Assembly (NCBI RefSeq): GCF_947492965.1
Contig: NZ_CANLOZ010000005.1
Coordinates: 1 to 64,000 of the forward strand
Reading direction: 5' to 3'
DNA from: an uncultured Aquimarina sp.
GTDB lineage: Bacteria > Bacteroidota > Bacteroidia > Flavobacteriales > Flavobacteriaceae
DNA length: 64,000 nucleotides
Positions within the stretch are counted from its first letter, which is position 1; each line of letters begins with the position of its first letter. The translations under genes and the position numbers were made by a program. Under the pieces are notes generated by a model that was not told the DNA's origin, did no database searches, and saw only the letters and a program-made list of their open reading frames with translations. Positions 40,354 to 45,645 of this stretch are shown here, piece by piece.

Positions 40354-40382
40354 CAAAATTAACAGGATTTTAAGGGTTACAA
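40354..40382 (-). promoter_or_regulatory. Candidate promoter of the BspA-repeat gene
   Basis: On the minus strand TTG (40382-40380) and TAATTTTG (40361-40354) are separated by 18 bp, close to the Bacteroidetes TTG-N19-TAnnTTTG consensus. The start codon is about 140 bp downstream, giving a long 5' leader. The same TAATTTTG box precedes the adhesin gene at 45563. Confidence 0.55.
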
Positions 40383-40390
40383 AGAATTTA

Positions 40391-40434
40391 GGGGTTGCAA
40401 AAGGGTTGCAACGAGGTGTTTTTGGGGTTGCAGG
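40391..40434 (+). promoter_or_regulatory. 11-bp phased direct repeats upstream of the BspA-repeat gene
   Basis: Four 9-bp sites lie at exactly 11-bp steps on the plus strand: GGGTTGCAA (40392), GGGTTGCAA (40403), AGGTGTTTT (40414, degenerate) and GGGTTGCAG (40425). The first begins 31 bp upstream of the TAATTTTG box. An extra out-of-phase GGGTTACAA at 40374 overlaps the -33 TTG. Same-face spacing of one helical turn suggests cooperative protein binding. Confidence 0.6.
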
Positions 40435-40542
40435 TTTATTTTTCTTTTCTTTATGGGCTATATCGGTCCCTTCGAGAACTTGAGCGTGGGCTTAGGCTCT
40501 CGAAGCCCTACATGATGAAGACTAGAATTGGTTCTCGATACA

Positions 40543-40560
40543 TCCCGATATACATCGGGA
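40543..40560. repeat. Palindromic REP-like element
   Basis: TCCCGAT and ATCGGGA are perfect arms around ATAC, flanked by GGTTCTCGATAC on the left and CACTCGAACTGACG on the right. It is an imperfect larger palindrome of the dispersed intergenic kind seen in flavobacteria. A second hairpin lies at 40471-40504. Confidence 0.5.
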
Positions 40561-40727
40561 CACTCGAACTGACGATATGTTATATTCAAAATTTGACCTT
40601 TTGAGTAATTAAGGGGCCACACACATCGAGGGCTGAGGTTCTGGAAGCCAAAAAAGGGAAGTTCTAAAGTTATACTTCGACAGGCCCAGTATGACATCAT
40701 AACTCCTGCAGTAAAATTATGGACTAA

Positions 40728-42368
40728 TTAAATATTGGAATTCTTAATAAACTCGATAATATCTTGTTTAGAATCTACTCCTATTTTTTTACGAATACGA
40801 GAGCGTGCAGATTTAATAGCAGAAACGGTATTGTTTTGTAGTTTGCTAATTTCTGTGGCATTAAGTCCTAAGGTCATTAAACATAGTAGCTCTTTTTCTT
40901 TTTCTTTTAAATCGGGAAATTTATTATCCAAAATCACTTTAAAATCCATACTTACCGTATCTATATAAGATTTTAAATCCGTGATATTAGTTTTTGTTGC
41001 TTTTTCCGACAGTAAGGATGCTGATAATGATTGTAAGGCAGTTTTACGTTCTTTTTCGTTTTCTAGTTTGATAATCTCCTTAATATCGCCCAAGGTTTTA
41101 CTCAATACTTCTTGTCGTAAAGAATTTTCTATAACCGCATTTTTCAATTCTTTTTCTTTGGTAACTAATGCCAATTCTGCTTTTACCTTTTCCAATTGCT
41201 CAGTTGCTAACTCTTCATTCGATAAGGCTATTCGTTGCTTCGCGTTTTTACGTGTCAACCAGAAAATAATACCTCCCAAGATGGTGGCAATTACAAAAAG
41301 TAATAAGTACAATTGCTTCTTAGATGTTTCATTTTCCAATCTTAATTCACTTGCTTGCTTTTCTTTATCAAATTTATAATTGAGTTCTAATTCTGTAATA
41401 CGCTTGGTTTTTTCTGTATTATTAATAGAATCATTATACATTTTATAGATCTTGTAATCTTGTAACGCTTGCTCATACGCTCCTCTAGTTTCATTCAGAT
41501 TACTTTTGCTATAATATTGTGTTCTTAATAGTCCATTATTTTTAATCTTTTTAGCTTCTGCAATAGCACTATCTAAATATGGAACCGCAGTGTCATATTG
41601 TTGTAAAGCATTGTATAACACTGCTACATTTAAATAACTTACGCTTAACTCATTCAAATCTTTTGCTTTTTTAGAAATACTTATGTTTTCCTTATAGATC
41701 TGAATGGCTTTATCATATTCTTTATTTGAGTAATATAATAATGCTAAACTTCCATTCGCTTTTGATTTTCGAAGATCAGAACAGGGTAAATCTTTTACTA
41801 TAGCTATATGGAACCTGCAAGAATCTAATTGTTTATTTTGATAATAAGTAACTGCCAACATGTGATGAGAAAGCGCAAGATCTTCCACATCCACCAGGTT
41901 TTCTTTGATGTGTATAGATTTCTTCAGATATTGTTTTGCTTTATTATATTCTTTTTGACGTCTATAAAACATTCCTAAGTTGTGAAATGTTAATCCAATA
42001 TTTGTAGAATCTTGCAAGTTCTGACTGAGATCTAAAGCTTCCAAATATGATGCCAATGCCTCTTCTGTTTTACTTTCCTTAGTATCCAAAATACCAAGAT
42101 AATTTAGTGCAGCGGCTTTAGCACTTTGATAGTAAACCCCTTTTTTCGTTTTAACGGTTCGCAATACATCTTTGAGGATAATCCTTGTAGTATCTACATT
42201 AGATGCAAGTAATTGTTTTGCCAAGTCTATTTGAAAGCGAAGTCGAGTAGAATCAGTAGTCGCATTTTCGATCTTATCCTTTAATTGATTTGCTATACTA
42301 TCATGAGATTGAGCATAGCTCTGCATCATACAAAGAAAGAAAAAAATAATAGGGTATAGTAGTTTCAA
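40728..42368 (-). CDS. Membrane TPR protein with C-terminal LuxR-like HTH
   Basis: This 546-residue protein has a signal peptide (1-19, ending SYAQ), about seven tetratricopeptide repeats (about 30-330; ALASYLEALDLSQNLQD, AKQYLKKSIHIKENL, DKAIQIYKENISISKKA), one membrane helix (about 351-371), a coiled coil and a C-terminal helix-turn-helix (about 489-534; KEKELLCLMTLGLNATEISK, then VSAIKSARSRIRKKIG). The layout, with periplasmic TPRs, a membrane helix and a cytoplasmic LuxR-like DNA-binding domain, is common in Flavobacteriia. It would sense something outside or in the envelope and bind DNA while membrane-bound. It lies between two T9SS surface-protein genes, and all three have the same phased operator. 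Control of itself and its neighbours is inferred. Confidence 0.9.
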   Translation of the reverse strand: MKLLYPIIFFFLCMMQSYAQSHDSIANQLKDKIENATTDSTRLRFQIDLAKQLLASNVDTTRIILKDVLRTVKTKKGVYYQSAKAAALNYLGILDTKESKTEEALASYLEALDLSQNLQDSTNIGLTFHNLGMFYRRQKEYNKAKQYLKKSIHIKENLVDVEDLALSHHMLAVTYYQNKQLDSCRFHIAIVKDLPCSDLRKSKANGSLALLYYSNKEYDKAIQIYKENISISKKAKDLNELSVSYLNVAVLYNALQQYDTAVPYLDSAIAEAKKIKNNGLLRTQYYSKSNLNETRGAYEQALQDYKIYKMYNDSINNTEKTKRITELELNYKFDKEKQASELRLENETSKKQLYLLLFVIATILGGIIFWLTRKNAKQRIALSNEELATEQLEKVKAELALVTKEKELKNAVIENSLRQEVLSKTLGDIKEIIKLENEKERKTALQSLSASLLSEKATKTNITDLKSYIDTVSMDFKVILDNKFPDLKEKEKELLCLMTLGLNATEISKLQNNTVSAIKSARSRIRKKIGVDSKQDIIEFIKNSNI

Positions 42369-42415
42369 AGGGAGTATCAGGTTTTAATAGTATGTGACAA
42401 AAGGTTTATTAGTTT

Positions 42416-42423
42416 CAAAAATA
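42416..42423 (-). promoter_or_regulatory. Candidate -7 element of the TPR-HTH gene
   Basis: The minus strand reads TATTTTTG, a full TAnnTTTG match, 48 bp before the ATG. At the -33 position the first phased repeat supplies TGG where TTG is usual. Confidence 0.5.
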
Positions 42424-42436
42424 CAAGATAATTTAT

Positions 42437-42478
42437 TTGCTACCACAATGAAACCCTTTTGACACCTTTTTGCTACCC
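42437..42478 (-). promoter_or_regulatory. Four 11-bp phased direct repeats upstream of the TPR-HTH gene
   Basis: On the minus strand, in order toward the gene, the sites are GGGTAGCAA (42478-42470), AGGTGTCAA (42467-42459), GGGTTTCAT (42456-42448) and TGGTAGCAA (42445-42437). All four are exactly 11 bp apart and fit RGGTNNCAA with at most one deviation. The array starts 13 bp upstream of the -7 box, so the nearest site covers the -33 region. Autoregulation is a natural inference. Confidence 0.65.
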
Positions 42479-42501
42479 CATTTCTAATTCTTTCATAAAA
42501 A

Positions 42502-42528
42502 ATCCCGATACATATTCGGTATCGGGAT
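42502..42528 (-). terminator. Terminator of the hexapeptide-repeat adhesin gene
   Basis: ATCCCGATAC (42502-42511) and GTATCGGGAT (42519-42528) are perfect 10-bp arms with a 7-nt loop. On the minus strand the hairpin is followed by TTTTTTATG. It lies 24 bp past the adhesin stop codon. Confidence 0.8.
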
Positions 42529-42551
42529 CAAGATATCATAATTATTTTTTC

Positions 42552-45500
42552 TTAGTTGATTACCATTTTTCTAGTATCTACTTTTTTGTTATCGGTAAAT
42601 AACGTGTAAAAATAAGTTCCAGAAGCAAGTCCATCGCTATTGATATGCAATTCTCCTTCTCCCACTTCTCCAATCTCAATGGTGGAAACAACTTGCCCAC
42701 TCGTATTACTGAACACAATTGAAGCCTTGCGTACATTTGTTGGAATATAATATTTTATGGAAGACGTAGCATCAAAAGGATTAGGAATGTTTTGGTATAA
42801 CACTGCCTTTTGATTTGCTCTTCCTCCTACATCACCTATTCCTAAAGTATGTTCCAAATTGCTCAACCTAGTTTCTATATCTGTCAATAATGGAGATAAA
42901 TCTACCGTTACTGAAGCACCATTTTGAATTTCTATAGTAAGATCTGTACCGCTTAGACTAGCAGAAGTTAAATCTTGTCCATCTGTATTTACAAAGGCTG
43001 AAAAATCCACTGTATTTCCATTGCTGATACTTAAGGTGCTATCAGTTAAATCCAAAATTTGACTATCAGTTCCGGTTCCATCTTGCAATGCAGAAAGATC
43101 AACCGTATTTCCATTACTAATGCTTAGCGTAGCATCAGTTAAATTTAATGTTTGGCTATCGGTTCCCGTTCCATCTTGTAGAGCAGATAAATCCACTGAA
43201 TTTCCATTACTAATACTTAAAGTATTATCAGTTAAATCCAAAGTTTGATTATCAGTTCCTGTTCCATCCTGTAACGAGGATAGATCTACTGTATTTCCTC
43301 CAGAAATTGATAAATCTGTTTCATTTAAACTTAACCGCTGACTATCGGTATTATCTAAATAACCGGAAAGATCAACCGTAGAGGCATTACCCGAAATGCT
43401 TAAAGTATTGGTGGCTAATGATAATGCTTGCGCATCCGTATTATCTAAATATCCTGATAAATCTATTGAAGTTGCATCATTTGTTAAACTCAACGTATTA
43501 TCTGTTAGCGTTAAATCCTGACTGTCTGTATTGTCCAAATAACCCGAAAGATCAACCGTAGAGGCATTACCAGAAATACTTAAGGTATTGGTGGCTAATG
43601 ATAATGCTTGCGCATCCGTATTATCTAAATATCCTGATAAGTCTATTGAAGTTGCATCATTTGTTAAACTTAGAGTATTATCTGTTAGCGTTAAATCCTG
43701 ACTGTCTGTATTGTCCAAATAACCTGAAAGATCAATCGTAGATGCATTACCAGAAATACTTAAGGTATTCGTTGCTAATGATAATGCTTGCGCATCCGTA
43801 TTATCTAAATATCCTGATAAGTCTATTGAAGTCGCATCATTTGTTAAACTCAACGTATTATCTGTTAGTGTTAAATCCTGACTGTCTGTATTGTCCAAAT
43901 AACCCGAAAGATCAATAGTCGATGCATTACCAGAAATACTTAAGGTATTCGTTACCAATGACAACTCTTGCGCATCTGTATTATCTAAATATCCTGATAA
44001 ATCTACAGTTTTAGTTGCCTCAGCATCATCTTGTAACGATAATTCAAGAACATTATCATTTAATTGAAAAACGTCAATGATTTGGTCGTCGGTATCCGTG
44101 TCAACATCTTGAGTAGAATTTATCCATCCCGTACCATTCCATATAAAAATAGATGATAAATCTGTATCATATACCAATAATCCTGCATCTGTAGTGGTTA
44201 ATGCATTTCCACTAGCAGCTGTTGTTACCATAGCGTTACGTTGCGCTGTAGTAAGTCTATTGACTAAAAACCCTTTATCTGTATCTGCTAACTCTAAAGA
44301 TGCATTTTGATTGGCTGCTACCGTACCGATACCCACACTTAGTCTATTAGTAGCTGTATTACCGCCAAGTGCCATGGTATTGGGGGTAGTAATGTTCACA
44401 TTATGGCCTAGAGCCACCGAGTATTGTTGGTTAACTTTACTAAACGCGCCAATTACAATCGCTCCTGTATTTCTTCCTGTAGATTCTGCCTCATGTCCTA
44501 TAACTACCTTCTCTGTTCCTTGTATATTTACTGAACTTCCCATAAACACATTCCGTTCATTTCGTATACTCCCCGATGACCCGACTTCTAAAAAATCTGC
44601 ATTCCAACCAATCCCTACATTGTCCGAACCATATCGATTTGTTCCCCCTGCGGTAGCTCCTAGATATGTATTTCTGTTAGAACCGTTAGTTCCTCCTACT
44701 CTATCATTCTCGAAACCTGCTCCATAACCGACAAAAGTGTTTCCATGAGCATTATCGCTATTTGCTCCAGCAGCAAACCCTAAAAAAGTATTGGCACCAC
44801 CCGAAGTATTATCAAGACCTGATCCTGCACCCAAAAAAGTATTTCCAATCCCTGTAGTATTGGTTTCTCCACTAGAAGCATTACGATAATATATATCATA
44901 AGAAGTATCAATAAGCGCTAATTCGGTATCGACATTACTCGGAGCTTTACCTCCGACAAACGTATTCCCTGATGCTGCAATATTATTATACCCTGCTCGT
45001 CTTCCTATAAATACATTATCAGATCCGGTAGTGGTATTTCTACCTGTATCTTCTCCCATAAATACATTACGATCACCTTCTGTAAGTTTCCAACCTGCCT
45101 CTTCACCTATAATCGTGTTGTCATAACCTCCTGTTAGATCTTTACCTGCCTCTGTCCCAATAACTACATTGTCGTTACCTATGTTATATCGGGCTACAGA
45201 GTTACCTATATAGACATTATCATAGCTATTTGTTGTTTGGTCTGCAGCAAACATCCCTATAATGGTATTGTCATAATCACTATTATCTAGACTTGCTCCT
45301 GCCAAACCTCCAATCAATATATTTCTATAACCAGTAGTTAAGTATCCACCAGCGCCCGGACCAAAAATAAGATTCCAATCCCCTGAGCTTATTTGTGAAC
45401 CCGGAGTATATGATTCACTTCGATCATAAGGTGCAGGAGTATGAGTACTAATATCCTCCTCAGGAATTATACTTGCTCCGCTAACCTGATTATTGGTCTG

Positions 45501-45563
45501 TGCTTGAAATTGAACTGTGTAAAATATAAAGATTGTTGCTGTAAAGTGTAAAAGTCTTTTCAT
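42552..45563 (-). CDS. Hexapeptide-repeat adhesin with T9SS sorting domain
   Basis: The protein is 1003 residues from the chosen ATG, which starts MKRLLHFTATIF; a Met 7 codons upstream is less signal-like. After a signal peptide come imperfect repeats of a trimeric-adhesin head type (about 60-380; DNVVIGTEAG, NVFIGRRAG, NTFLGAGSG). A linker with LLVYDTDLSSIFIWNGTGWI follows, then a long stalk of 30-residue repeats (about 470-890; LSLATNTLSISGNAS, SIDLSGYLDNTD), a short coiled coil (LLTDIETRLSNLE) and a T9SS type A sorting domain (about 930-1003; YQNIPNPFDATSSIKYYIP, GTYFYTLFTDNKK). It is likely a surface fibre or adhesin. The gene has its own promoter and phased repeats and ends at a strong terminator. 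Confidence 0.88.
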   Translation of the reverse strand: MKRLLHFTATIFIFYTVQFQAQTNNQVSGASIIPEEDISTHTPAPYDRSESYTPGSQISSGDWNLIFGPGAGGYLTTGYRNILIGGLAGASLDNSDYDNTIIGMFAADQTTNSYDNVYIGNSVARYNIGNDNVVIGTEAGKDLTGGYDNTIIGEEAGWKLTEGDRNVFMGEDTGRNTTTGSDNVFIGRRAGYNNIAASGNTFVGGKAPSNVDTELALIDTSYDIYYRNASSGETNTTGIGNTFLGAGSGLDNTSGGANTFLGFAAGANSDNAHGNTFVGYGAGFENDRVGGTNGSNRNTYLGATAGGTNRYGSDNVGIGWNADFLEVGSSGSIRNERNVFMGSSVNIQGTEKVVIGHEAESTGRNTGAIVIGAFSKVNQQYSVALGHNVNITTPNTMALGGNTATNRLSVGIGTVAANQNASLELADTDKGFLVNRLTTAQRNAMVTTAASGNALTTTDAGLLVYDTDLSSIFIWNGTGWINSTQDVDTDTDDQIIDVFQLNDNVLELSLQDDAEATKTVDLSGYLDNTDAQELSLVTNTLSISGNASTIDLSGYLDNTDSQDLTLTDNTLSLTNDATSIDLSGYLDNTDAQALSLATNTLSISGNASTIDLSGYLDNTDSQDLTLTDNTLSLTNDATSIDLSGYLDNTDAQALSLATNTLSISGNASTVDLSGYLDNTDSQDLTLTDNTLSLTNDATSIDLSGYLDNTDAQALSLATNTLSISGNASTVDLSGYLDNTDSQRLSLNETDLSISGGNTVDLSSLQDGTGTDNQTLDLTDNTLSISNGNSVDLSALQDGTGTDSQTLNLTDATLSISNGNTVDLSALQDGTGTDSQILDLTDSTLSISNGNTVDFSAFVNTDGQDLTSASLSGTDLTIEIQNGASVTVDLSPLLTDIETRLSNLEHTLGIGDVGGRANQKAVLYQNIPNPFDATSSIKYYIPTNVRKASIVFSNTSGQVVSTIEIGEVGEGELHINSDGLASGTYFYTLFTDNKKVDTRKMVIN
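43335..44010. repeat. 180-bp tandem repeats in the adhesin stalk
   Basis: Near-identical DNA recurs every 180 bp (two 30-residue units). The segment ending GCATTAC(C/A)(C/A)GAAAT is found near 43377, 43557, 43737 and 43917. The most similar copies differ at only a few positions, so copy number is likely variable between strains. A shorter related 90-bp unit continues at 43010-43330. Confidence 0.85.
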
Positions 45564-45586
45564 ACTAGGGCTTTTAAATTGCACGA

Positions 45587-45594
45587 CAAAATTA
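45587..45594 (-). promoter_or_regulatory. Candidate -7 element of the adhesin gene
   Basis: The minus strand reads TAATTTTG, identical to the box of the BspA-repeat gene, 24 bp before the ATG at 45563. No -33 TTG is found, so activator dependence is plausible. Confidence 0.5.
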
Positions 45595-45625
45595 TAGTAA
45601 CAGCTTAGAAAAATAATGTGAAATG

Positions 45626-45645
45626 GGGTTGCAAAAAGGTGTCAA
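45626..45645 (+). promoter_or_regulatory. Phased repeat pair upstream of the adhesin gene
   Basis: GGGTTGCAA (45626-45634) and AGGTGTCAA (45637-45645) are 11 bp apart, 32 bp upstream of the TAATTTTG box. The surrounding 26 bp match the array of the TPR-HTH gene at all but one position over the two distal sites, but in opposite orientation to the gene. The pair also lies in the leader of the divergent carboxylase operon (start 45853). Confidence 0.6.

Follow-up and report, generated by a model that had tools for sequence, protein, structure and literature searches.

In a 64,000-nucleotide stretch of an uncultured Aquimarina sp. (contig NZ_CANLOZ010000005.1, positions 1 to 64,000, hereafter the window; genome kinship and named records both place it in the genus Aquimarina), three neighbouring genes on the minus strand are each preceded by direct repeats of the box TTGNNACC at steps of 11 bp. 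They are, in this order, an adhesin-like gene, the gene of a regulator combining tetratricopeptide repeats with a helix-turn-helix (TPR-HTH), and a 2433-aa gene of the DUF285/BspA type. Taken as a whole, these arrays are best explained as operators of the TPR-HTH protein, through which the surface-protein genes would be activated and the regulator would repress itself, a reading to which we give a probability of about 0.8.

All three arrays of RGGTNNCAA-like sites described in the initial annotation, including the degenerate site in front of the BspA-type gene, lie where it had placed them and follow 11-bp steps. At the BspA-type promoter the plus strand reads GGTTGCA at 40393, 40404 and 40426 and GGTGTTT at 40415; the GGTNNCA boxes of the adhesin promoter are found at 45627 and 45638, again on the plus strand, and those of the TPR-HTH promoter on the minus strand at 42438, 42449, 42460 and 42471, in exact 11-bp steps. 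On the coding strand, the surface-protein promoters show TTGNNACC pairs of the type TTGCAACC-ttt/ctt-TTGCAACC. Because all three genes are read from the minus strand, the boxes at the regulator's promoter are oriented opposite to those of its two neighbours. This inversion, together with the fixed position of the boxes relative to the promoter described below, is an addition to the earlier observation.

The exact 11-bp pair of GGTNNCA boxes (pattern GGTNNCANNNNGGTNNCA) has five matches in the 5.54-Mb genome, all of them in the three arrays. Since the reversed pattern gives four matches in the whole genome, the plain count is not above its control; the striking point is that all five exact pairs fall within 5.3 kb of 5.54 Mb. 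Within the window, matches with at most one mismatch number eight, where shuffled sequences average 1.46 (largest 5; none of 100 shuffles reached 8); exact pairs number five, where a first-order Markov model yields 0.04 on average and at most 1 over 200 draws. These counts rule out a chance origin of the arrays. A 19-base version with up to three mismatches recovered from the same genome the three arrays and one further place (three mismatches; control 2), and no TGNNACC pair at 7-34 bp was found in the 1.5-kb flanks of the genome's 17 paralog loci, some of which overlap. As the pair matches are confined to the three arrays, the candidate regulon of this genome amounts to three promoters, and a genome-wide regulon in this strain is rejected. 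A background frequency of the motif, named at the outset as grounds for rejecting the idea, is therefore not what the genome holds, the exact pair occurring nowhere else in it; the enrichment expected before genes of the type IX secretion system (T9SS) fails in this genome with its three promoters, and holds across the genus.

Of the 51 further Aquimarina genomes sampled, 9 have orthologs of the regulator (45-86% identity); together with the window and two loci from named records (L055, L056) these make up a clade-A set of 12 loci. Same-strand TGNNACC spacings in this set are most frequent at 11 bp (32), 22 bp (14) and 33 bp (9), followed by 18 and 29 bp (7 each), with 0-3 for any other spacing of 7-34 bp; the values at 22, 29 and 33 bp are partly sums of other spacings. 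At least one 11-bp pair is present in all 12 loci, and also in loci of two other genera, and the conservation of phase in homologous promoters of related species, on which the initial annotation had made its proposal depend, is thus borne out. Anchored on the -7 element, which is conserved in 13 of 13 BspA-type promoters by construction of the anchor, the pair is kept in 12 of 13 (L068 retains one box), and the box region averages 1.22 bits per column vs 0.36 immediately upstream. The distal fourth box is kept in L064 and L055 only among the relatives and is off phase in L067, and a duplicated BspA-type gene has an array of its own (L066, L055). All 11 anchored loci conserve TATTTTTG at the promoter of the regulator itself. 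In A. brevivitae, whose HTH shares 45% identity, TTGATACC has taken the place of both boxes at two promoters. A pattern-free scan of intergenic regions returned, for clade A, 19 regions with 11-bp repeats vs a Markov mean of 3.6 and, for clade C, introduced below, 19 regions with 10-bp repeats vs 2.6.

Promoters of Bacteroidetes carry the -7 and -33 motifs TAnnTTTG and TTTG (PMC2483708). From the end of the proximal box to TAnnTTTG, the distance is 31 nt in promoters of the BspA type (32 in L056) and 32 nt in the adhesin promoter. Across 38 loci, which were not selected by this distance, TAnn[TA]TTG lies 31-33 nt from the proximal box in 34 of 62 distinct pairs, and only four occurrences are found at other distances between 0 and 77 nt; of the 28 pairs left over, many belong to the regulators' own arrays seen in reverse, and others have no strict element. 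The box offset by 18 bp in BspA-type promoters is probably an overlap with the -33 element: at 40375-40382, a third TTGNNACC box, kept in several relatives, seems to have merged with it. At the regulator's own promoter, the array reaches between -33 and -7, its nearest box ending 14 nt before -7.

This geometry suggests the direction of the regulation. A pair of boxes with centres at about -47 and -58 would, at the target promoters, permit contact with RNA polymerase and activation of the surface-protein genes, and for the regulator's own gene the inverted array, with its last box between -33 and -7, would block transcription and so provide negative autoregulation. The same regulator could also act with the opposite sign, repressing the surface-protein genes and activating itself, or a divergent neighbour, from the inverted array. 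Sign is not readable from sequence with certainty, and in two loci, L065 and L069, the array of the regulator points towards a divergent carboxylase-subunit gene as well; the target boxes, however, occupy the usual position of an activator, upstream of the -33 region, and the last box of the regulator's array that of a repressor, and we consider the opposite sign rather unlikely.

The most likely reader of the arrays is the TPR-HTH protein, as had been proposed, and three lines of evidence support it: its adjacency, boxes that change with the HTH lineage, and an excess of arrays in genomes that have the ortholog. Its TPRs are recognised with confidence (Pfam TPR_12, 3e-23), and a strong transmembrane segment lies at about residues 353-371 (hydropathy maximum). 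The C-terminal 67 aa score 21.7 bits against the GerE/LuxR HTH (PF00196; cut-off 23.5), or 18.6 on 200 aa, and the PDB profiles closest to the HTH region are VraR, NarL, RcsB and LiaR (E from 1.2e-05). At E <= 0.001, Pfam finds nothing but TPRs in the full protein, with no OmpR-type DNA-binding or BTA domain; at E <= 5 the C-terminus gives GerE, Sigma70_r4_2 and unrelated weak matches. Pfam scans found no receiver domain and no kinase domain was detected, sensor and HTH forming a single chain. We would accordingly picture a one-component regulator of the inner membrane with a periplasmic TPR sensor and a cytoplasmic HTH of the NarL/LuxR type, whose HTH monomers may sit head-to-tail on neighbouring TTGNNACC boxes along one face of the helix. 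Across 25 aligned family members, R522, R524 and R526-K528 in the presumed recognition region are invariant, and the residues beside them vary along with the box sequence; the outer TTG..ACC letters may thus be read by invariant residues and the two middle letters by variable ones.

The rival to be weighed here is that some other DNA-binding protein, for example a NarL-type response regulator encoded elsewhere, uses the arrays as its operators, with the TPR-HTH gene as a co-regulated passenger of the surface-protein cassette. It draws on the fact that binding by the TPR-HTH protein is something we infer, and on orphan arrays in genomes without an intact TPR-HTH protein of the clade. Against it stands that box sequence and period track the HTH lineage, both within clade C and between genera. 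Paralogous TPR-HTH genes of Aquimarina, which also lie beside T9SS-type genes, have arrays of period 10, and among 12 Aquimarina clade-C loci TGACACCTTTTGACACC (TGACACC) accompanies lineage C2a (7/8 loci vs 0/4 without it), TTGCCACTTTTTGCCACC (TTGCCAC) lineage C2b (3/3 vs 0/9) and TGAAACTTTTTGTAACC lineage C1 (7/7 vs 0/5). Loci with two HTH lineages (L081, L092) hold both box types, and one-lineage loci hold that one. The C1 arrays lie 32 nt from TAcc/ctATTG in six loci, the seventh being masked, and the genes behind them are mostly hidden by masked stretches. In clade B1, three of five loci have TGATACTCTTTTGCTACC with an 11-bp step upstream of a 550-aa gene, a pair found once T was allowed at the last box letter; one of the two negative loci is a 3.4-kb contig. 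Other genera, with proteins 41-42% identical, have 11-bp pairs of TTGATACC or TGCTACC before the gene adjoining the regulator; 10-bp pairs occur, again in other genera, in L113, L114 and L115. In most cases the boxes of these paralogous lineages, stepped by 10 or 11 bp, lie 31-33 nt from -7.

The genome counts point in the same direction. In the 10 genomes with an ortholog, the bare 11-bp pair has 27 matches vs 4 in the control, a clear excess over the little seen in genomes without one. The composite pattern, which combines a -7 element with two boxes at a 10- or 11-bp step beginning 31-32 nt away, was counted in samples of genomes, the draws comprising 52 from Aquimarina and 299 and 397 from the family. 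In the 52 Aquimarina genomes it has 28 + 20 = 48 matches, with 0 + 0 for the reversed control; 47 of the 48 are intergenic (at most 60 nt inside any open reading frame of at least 150 aa) and 26 have a TPR-HTH match no more than 1.5 kb away (nine proteins as tblastn queries, E <= 1e-8; some of these matches could rest on TPRs alone). The 397 family genomes gave 5 + 25 matches, two of them the window's own, vs 1 + 5 in the control; 18 of the 28 others are intergenic, and nine, in seven genomes, lie beside a TPR-HTH match, all nine intergenic. Intergenic and neighbour counts cover all 48 genus matches and all 28 non-own family matches. Array-like sites also occur apart from the regulator, before the start of a BspA-type gene (L093) and of an adhesin-like gene (L095), as expected for a trans-acting factor.

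As for the orphan arrays, they look like leftovers of lost cassettes. In L096:6878 and L097:6888 (G043, G025; the two genomes share 95% identity across the compared stretch) the entire cassette of regulator and surface proteins is missing between LysE-type and biotin-carrier genes, and a four-box array persists, which across 55 bp shares 89% identity with the window's regulator operator; in the decayed locus L206:7620-7990 (G040), all that is left of the regulator beside an adhesin-type array is a fragment of its HTH region. Based on these observations, we regard an unrelated binder as quite unlikely. That the repeats are recombination, phase-variation or mobile-element repeats, or due to chance, is very improbable: short tandem-like units do adjoin large repetitive surface proteins, and loss of a cassette leaves the array behind, but box letters alone are conserved while spacers vary, no copies occur elsewhere in the genome, chance is excluded, and the fixed distance to the promoter element across unrelated genes speaks against mobile or phase-variation repeats.

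Several observations weigh against the TPR-HTH protein as activator of its neighbours and repressor of itself. Binding is inferred, and activation and repression are read from geometry. Almost half of the genus composite matches (22/48) have no TPR-HTH match within 1.5 kb, and those in L120, L124 and L131 (a single repeated sequence) and in L132 (which falls within a gene) seem unrelated. In the 42 genomes without an ortholog, the bare 19-base pair still has 19 matches vs 14 for its reversed control, and arrays stand beside no intact regulator in the three genomes of L096, L097 and L206. Compared with those of the targets, the regulator's own array is weaker: five of the 12 clade-A loci have exact 11-bp pairs there, in other loci of the clade it is degenerate, and in L072 it is absent. 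The strict TAnn[TA]TTG is missing from L072, L111, L112, L115 and the B1 loci, look-alikes in the first three having been recognised by eye only. The C2a locus L089 lacks its box, L067 has a C2b HTH and no strict TTGCCAC pair, and no array was found at clade B2 or at L078. Finally, the Fisher values of the lineage/box association (0.010, 0.0045 and 0.012) overstate independence because the loci are related.

Coordinates of the three genes and their promoter features are collected in Table 1. The BspA-type protein matches Pfam DUF285 (4e-226) and Por_Secre_tail (5.3e-12) and reaches 44.7 bits with the T9SS type A sorting domain TIGR04183 (cut-off 23); the adhesin-like protein scores 29.4 bits with the latter and 24.2 bits with Por_Secre_tail, under Pfam's 27.

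Table 1. Genes, promoter elements and putative operator boxes of the locus (positions in the window)
Feature	Position	Strand	Remarks
Putative target gene 1, surface protein, 2433 aa	32912..40213	-	DUF285 (BspA-type) repeats, PKD, Ig-like, T9SS C-terminal sorting domain
-7 element of BspA-type gene, coding strand TAATTTTG	40354..40361	-	start of composite-pattern match
Extra box TTGTAACC	40375..40382	-	18 bp from next box, overlaps expected -33 position
Putative operator pair of BspA-type gene, TTGCAACC	40393-40400 + 40404-40411	-	31 nt from -7 element
Degenerate third box (40415) and fourth box CTGCAACC (40426-40433)	40415..40433	-	in phase, poorly conserved
TPR-HTH regulator, 546 aa	40728..42368	-	hydrophobic N-terminus, TPRs, transmembrane helix, linker, C-terminal HTH
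-7 element of TPR-HTH gene, coding strand TATTTTTG	42416..42423	-	conserved in relatives
Four-box array of TPR-HTH gene's own promoter, GGTNNCA on coding strand	42438..42477	-	inverted relative to putative targets
Putative target gene 2, adhesin-like, 1010 aa	42552..45584	-	T9SS sorting domain; probable start ATG ~45560
-7 element of adhesin gene, coding strand TAATTTTG	45587..45594	-	composite-pattern match
Putative adhesin operator pair, TTGCAACC and TTGACACC	45627-45634, 45638-45645	-	32 nt from -7 element

Beyond this locus, we find it fairly probable that the TPR-HTH family of Flavobacteriaceae forms self-addressed surface-protein cassettes, each with its own TTGNNAC[CT] box, a period of 10 or 11 bp, a fixed position at the promoter and self-repression through an inverted array. 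The mark we propose for the family, a TTGNNAC[CT] pair at 10 or 11 bp lying 31-33 nt before -7 beside a TPR-HTH gene, is found in the window and in relatives. Each lineage would be set apart by a box used by no other and by its period, which is 11 bp in clades A and B1 and 10 bp in clade C, allowing a number of these regulators to coexist without cross-talk; the recognition helix would set the box of a lineage, and sequence alone would suffice to read both the code and the change of period. Some further loci deserve mention. In L076, L077 and L079 a B1 TPR-HTH gene lies beside a 550-aa gene with, by eye, an AraC-like end and a TGATACT/TGCTACC pair at 11 bp upstream. In four genomes (L194, L195, L196, L205) a further TPR-HTH lineage and its neighbouring gene share a GGGGTGACAAARGGGTKACA array, and in L194 and L195 this gene starts, by eye, like a lipoprotein. 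A GGTTACA pair at 11 bp in L203:8023 (G259), which may be due to chance, lies between a gene whose beginning resembles, by eye, a SusC-type receptor and a large protein, itself a distant TPR-HTH match.

Among known systems, the layout resembles the operators of the SARPs, which are cytoplasmic proteins of actinomycetes. Here, as in the operators of PimR and AfsR of Streptomyces, heptamers recur in the same direction every 11 or 22 bp. In the SARP-LAL protein PimR the heptamers are separated by 4-nt spacers (11 bp), and by 3-nt spacers (10 bp) in a secondary operator (PMC5930380); the PimR operator lies upstream of -35, consistent with class I activation, and AfsR also carries TPRs (PMC5930380, PMC10936776). 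However, the 3' repeat of SARP operators, with their 11- or 22-bp repeats, lies 8 bp from the -10 element (PMC10936776) in place of the 31-33 nt to -7 seen here, and SARPs have their DNA-binding domain at the N-terminus (PMC5930380, PMC10936776), whereas our protein has a GerE/NarL-like HTH at its C-terminus, behind a transmembrane helix, and lacks the OmpR-type and BTA domains in Pfam. The 7 + 4 bp layout of direct repeats is shared with the boxes of PhoB and PhoP, the latter binding 7-bp repeats with a 4-bp spacer as a cooperative head-to-tail dimer (PMC4832192); these are, in contrast, winged-helix response regulators under a histidine kinase, and Pfam shows no receiver or OmpR-type domain here. 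FimS/FimR likewise controls adhesive surface structures, FimR binding and activating the mfa1 promoter of Porphyromonas gingivalis directly (PMC1974823), and NCBIfam FimS is the best match of the TPR part; that system, however, consists of two proteins, and the match reaches 50.4 bits with a cut-off of 600. VraR, NarL, RcsB and LiaR, the nearest profiles of the HTH with their NarL/LuxR (GerE) domains, carry them as C-terminal domains of response regulators, with no TPR-transmembrane part. The BT3442 family (NCBIfam NF053779) matches residues 87-534, TPRs and HTH included, at 41.1 bits, far from the equivalog cut-off of 940, and BT_3442 is described as a multi-domain TPR protein, no regulation being proposed in the parts of that source at hand (PMC2954219).

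The initial annotation knew of no described regulator with this motif and period. As regards regulator and motif this stands: the literature searched, partly represented by excerpts, holds no description of the regulator, of the box motif or code, of the 31-32-nt placement or of T9SS surface-protein regulation by such a protein in Flavobacteriaceae. The period, by contrast, was already known, because SARP-LAL, SARP and PhoP repeats, and PhoB-type operators in general, have been described. The apparent novelty lies in its adoption by membrane-spanning TPR-HTH proteins, in boxes specific to each lineage and in a placement fixed at 31-32 nt. If true, operators could be assigned to their regulators by sequence and targets predicted genome by genome; the 10 vs 11 bp of related proteins would offer a natural test of how HTH domains of the NarL type pack head-to-tail on DNA, and many uncharacterised giant surface proteins would gain a first regulatory handle.

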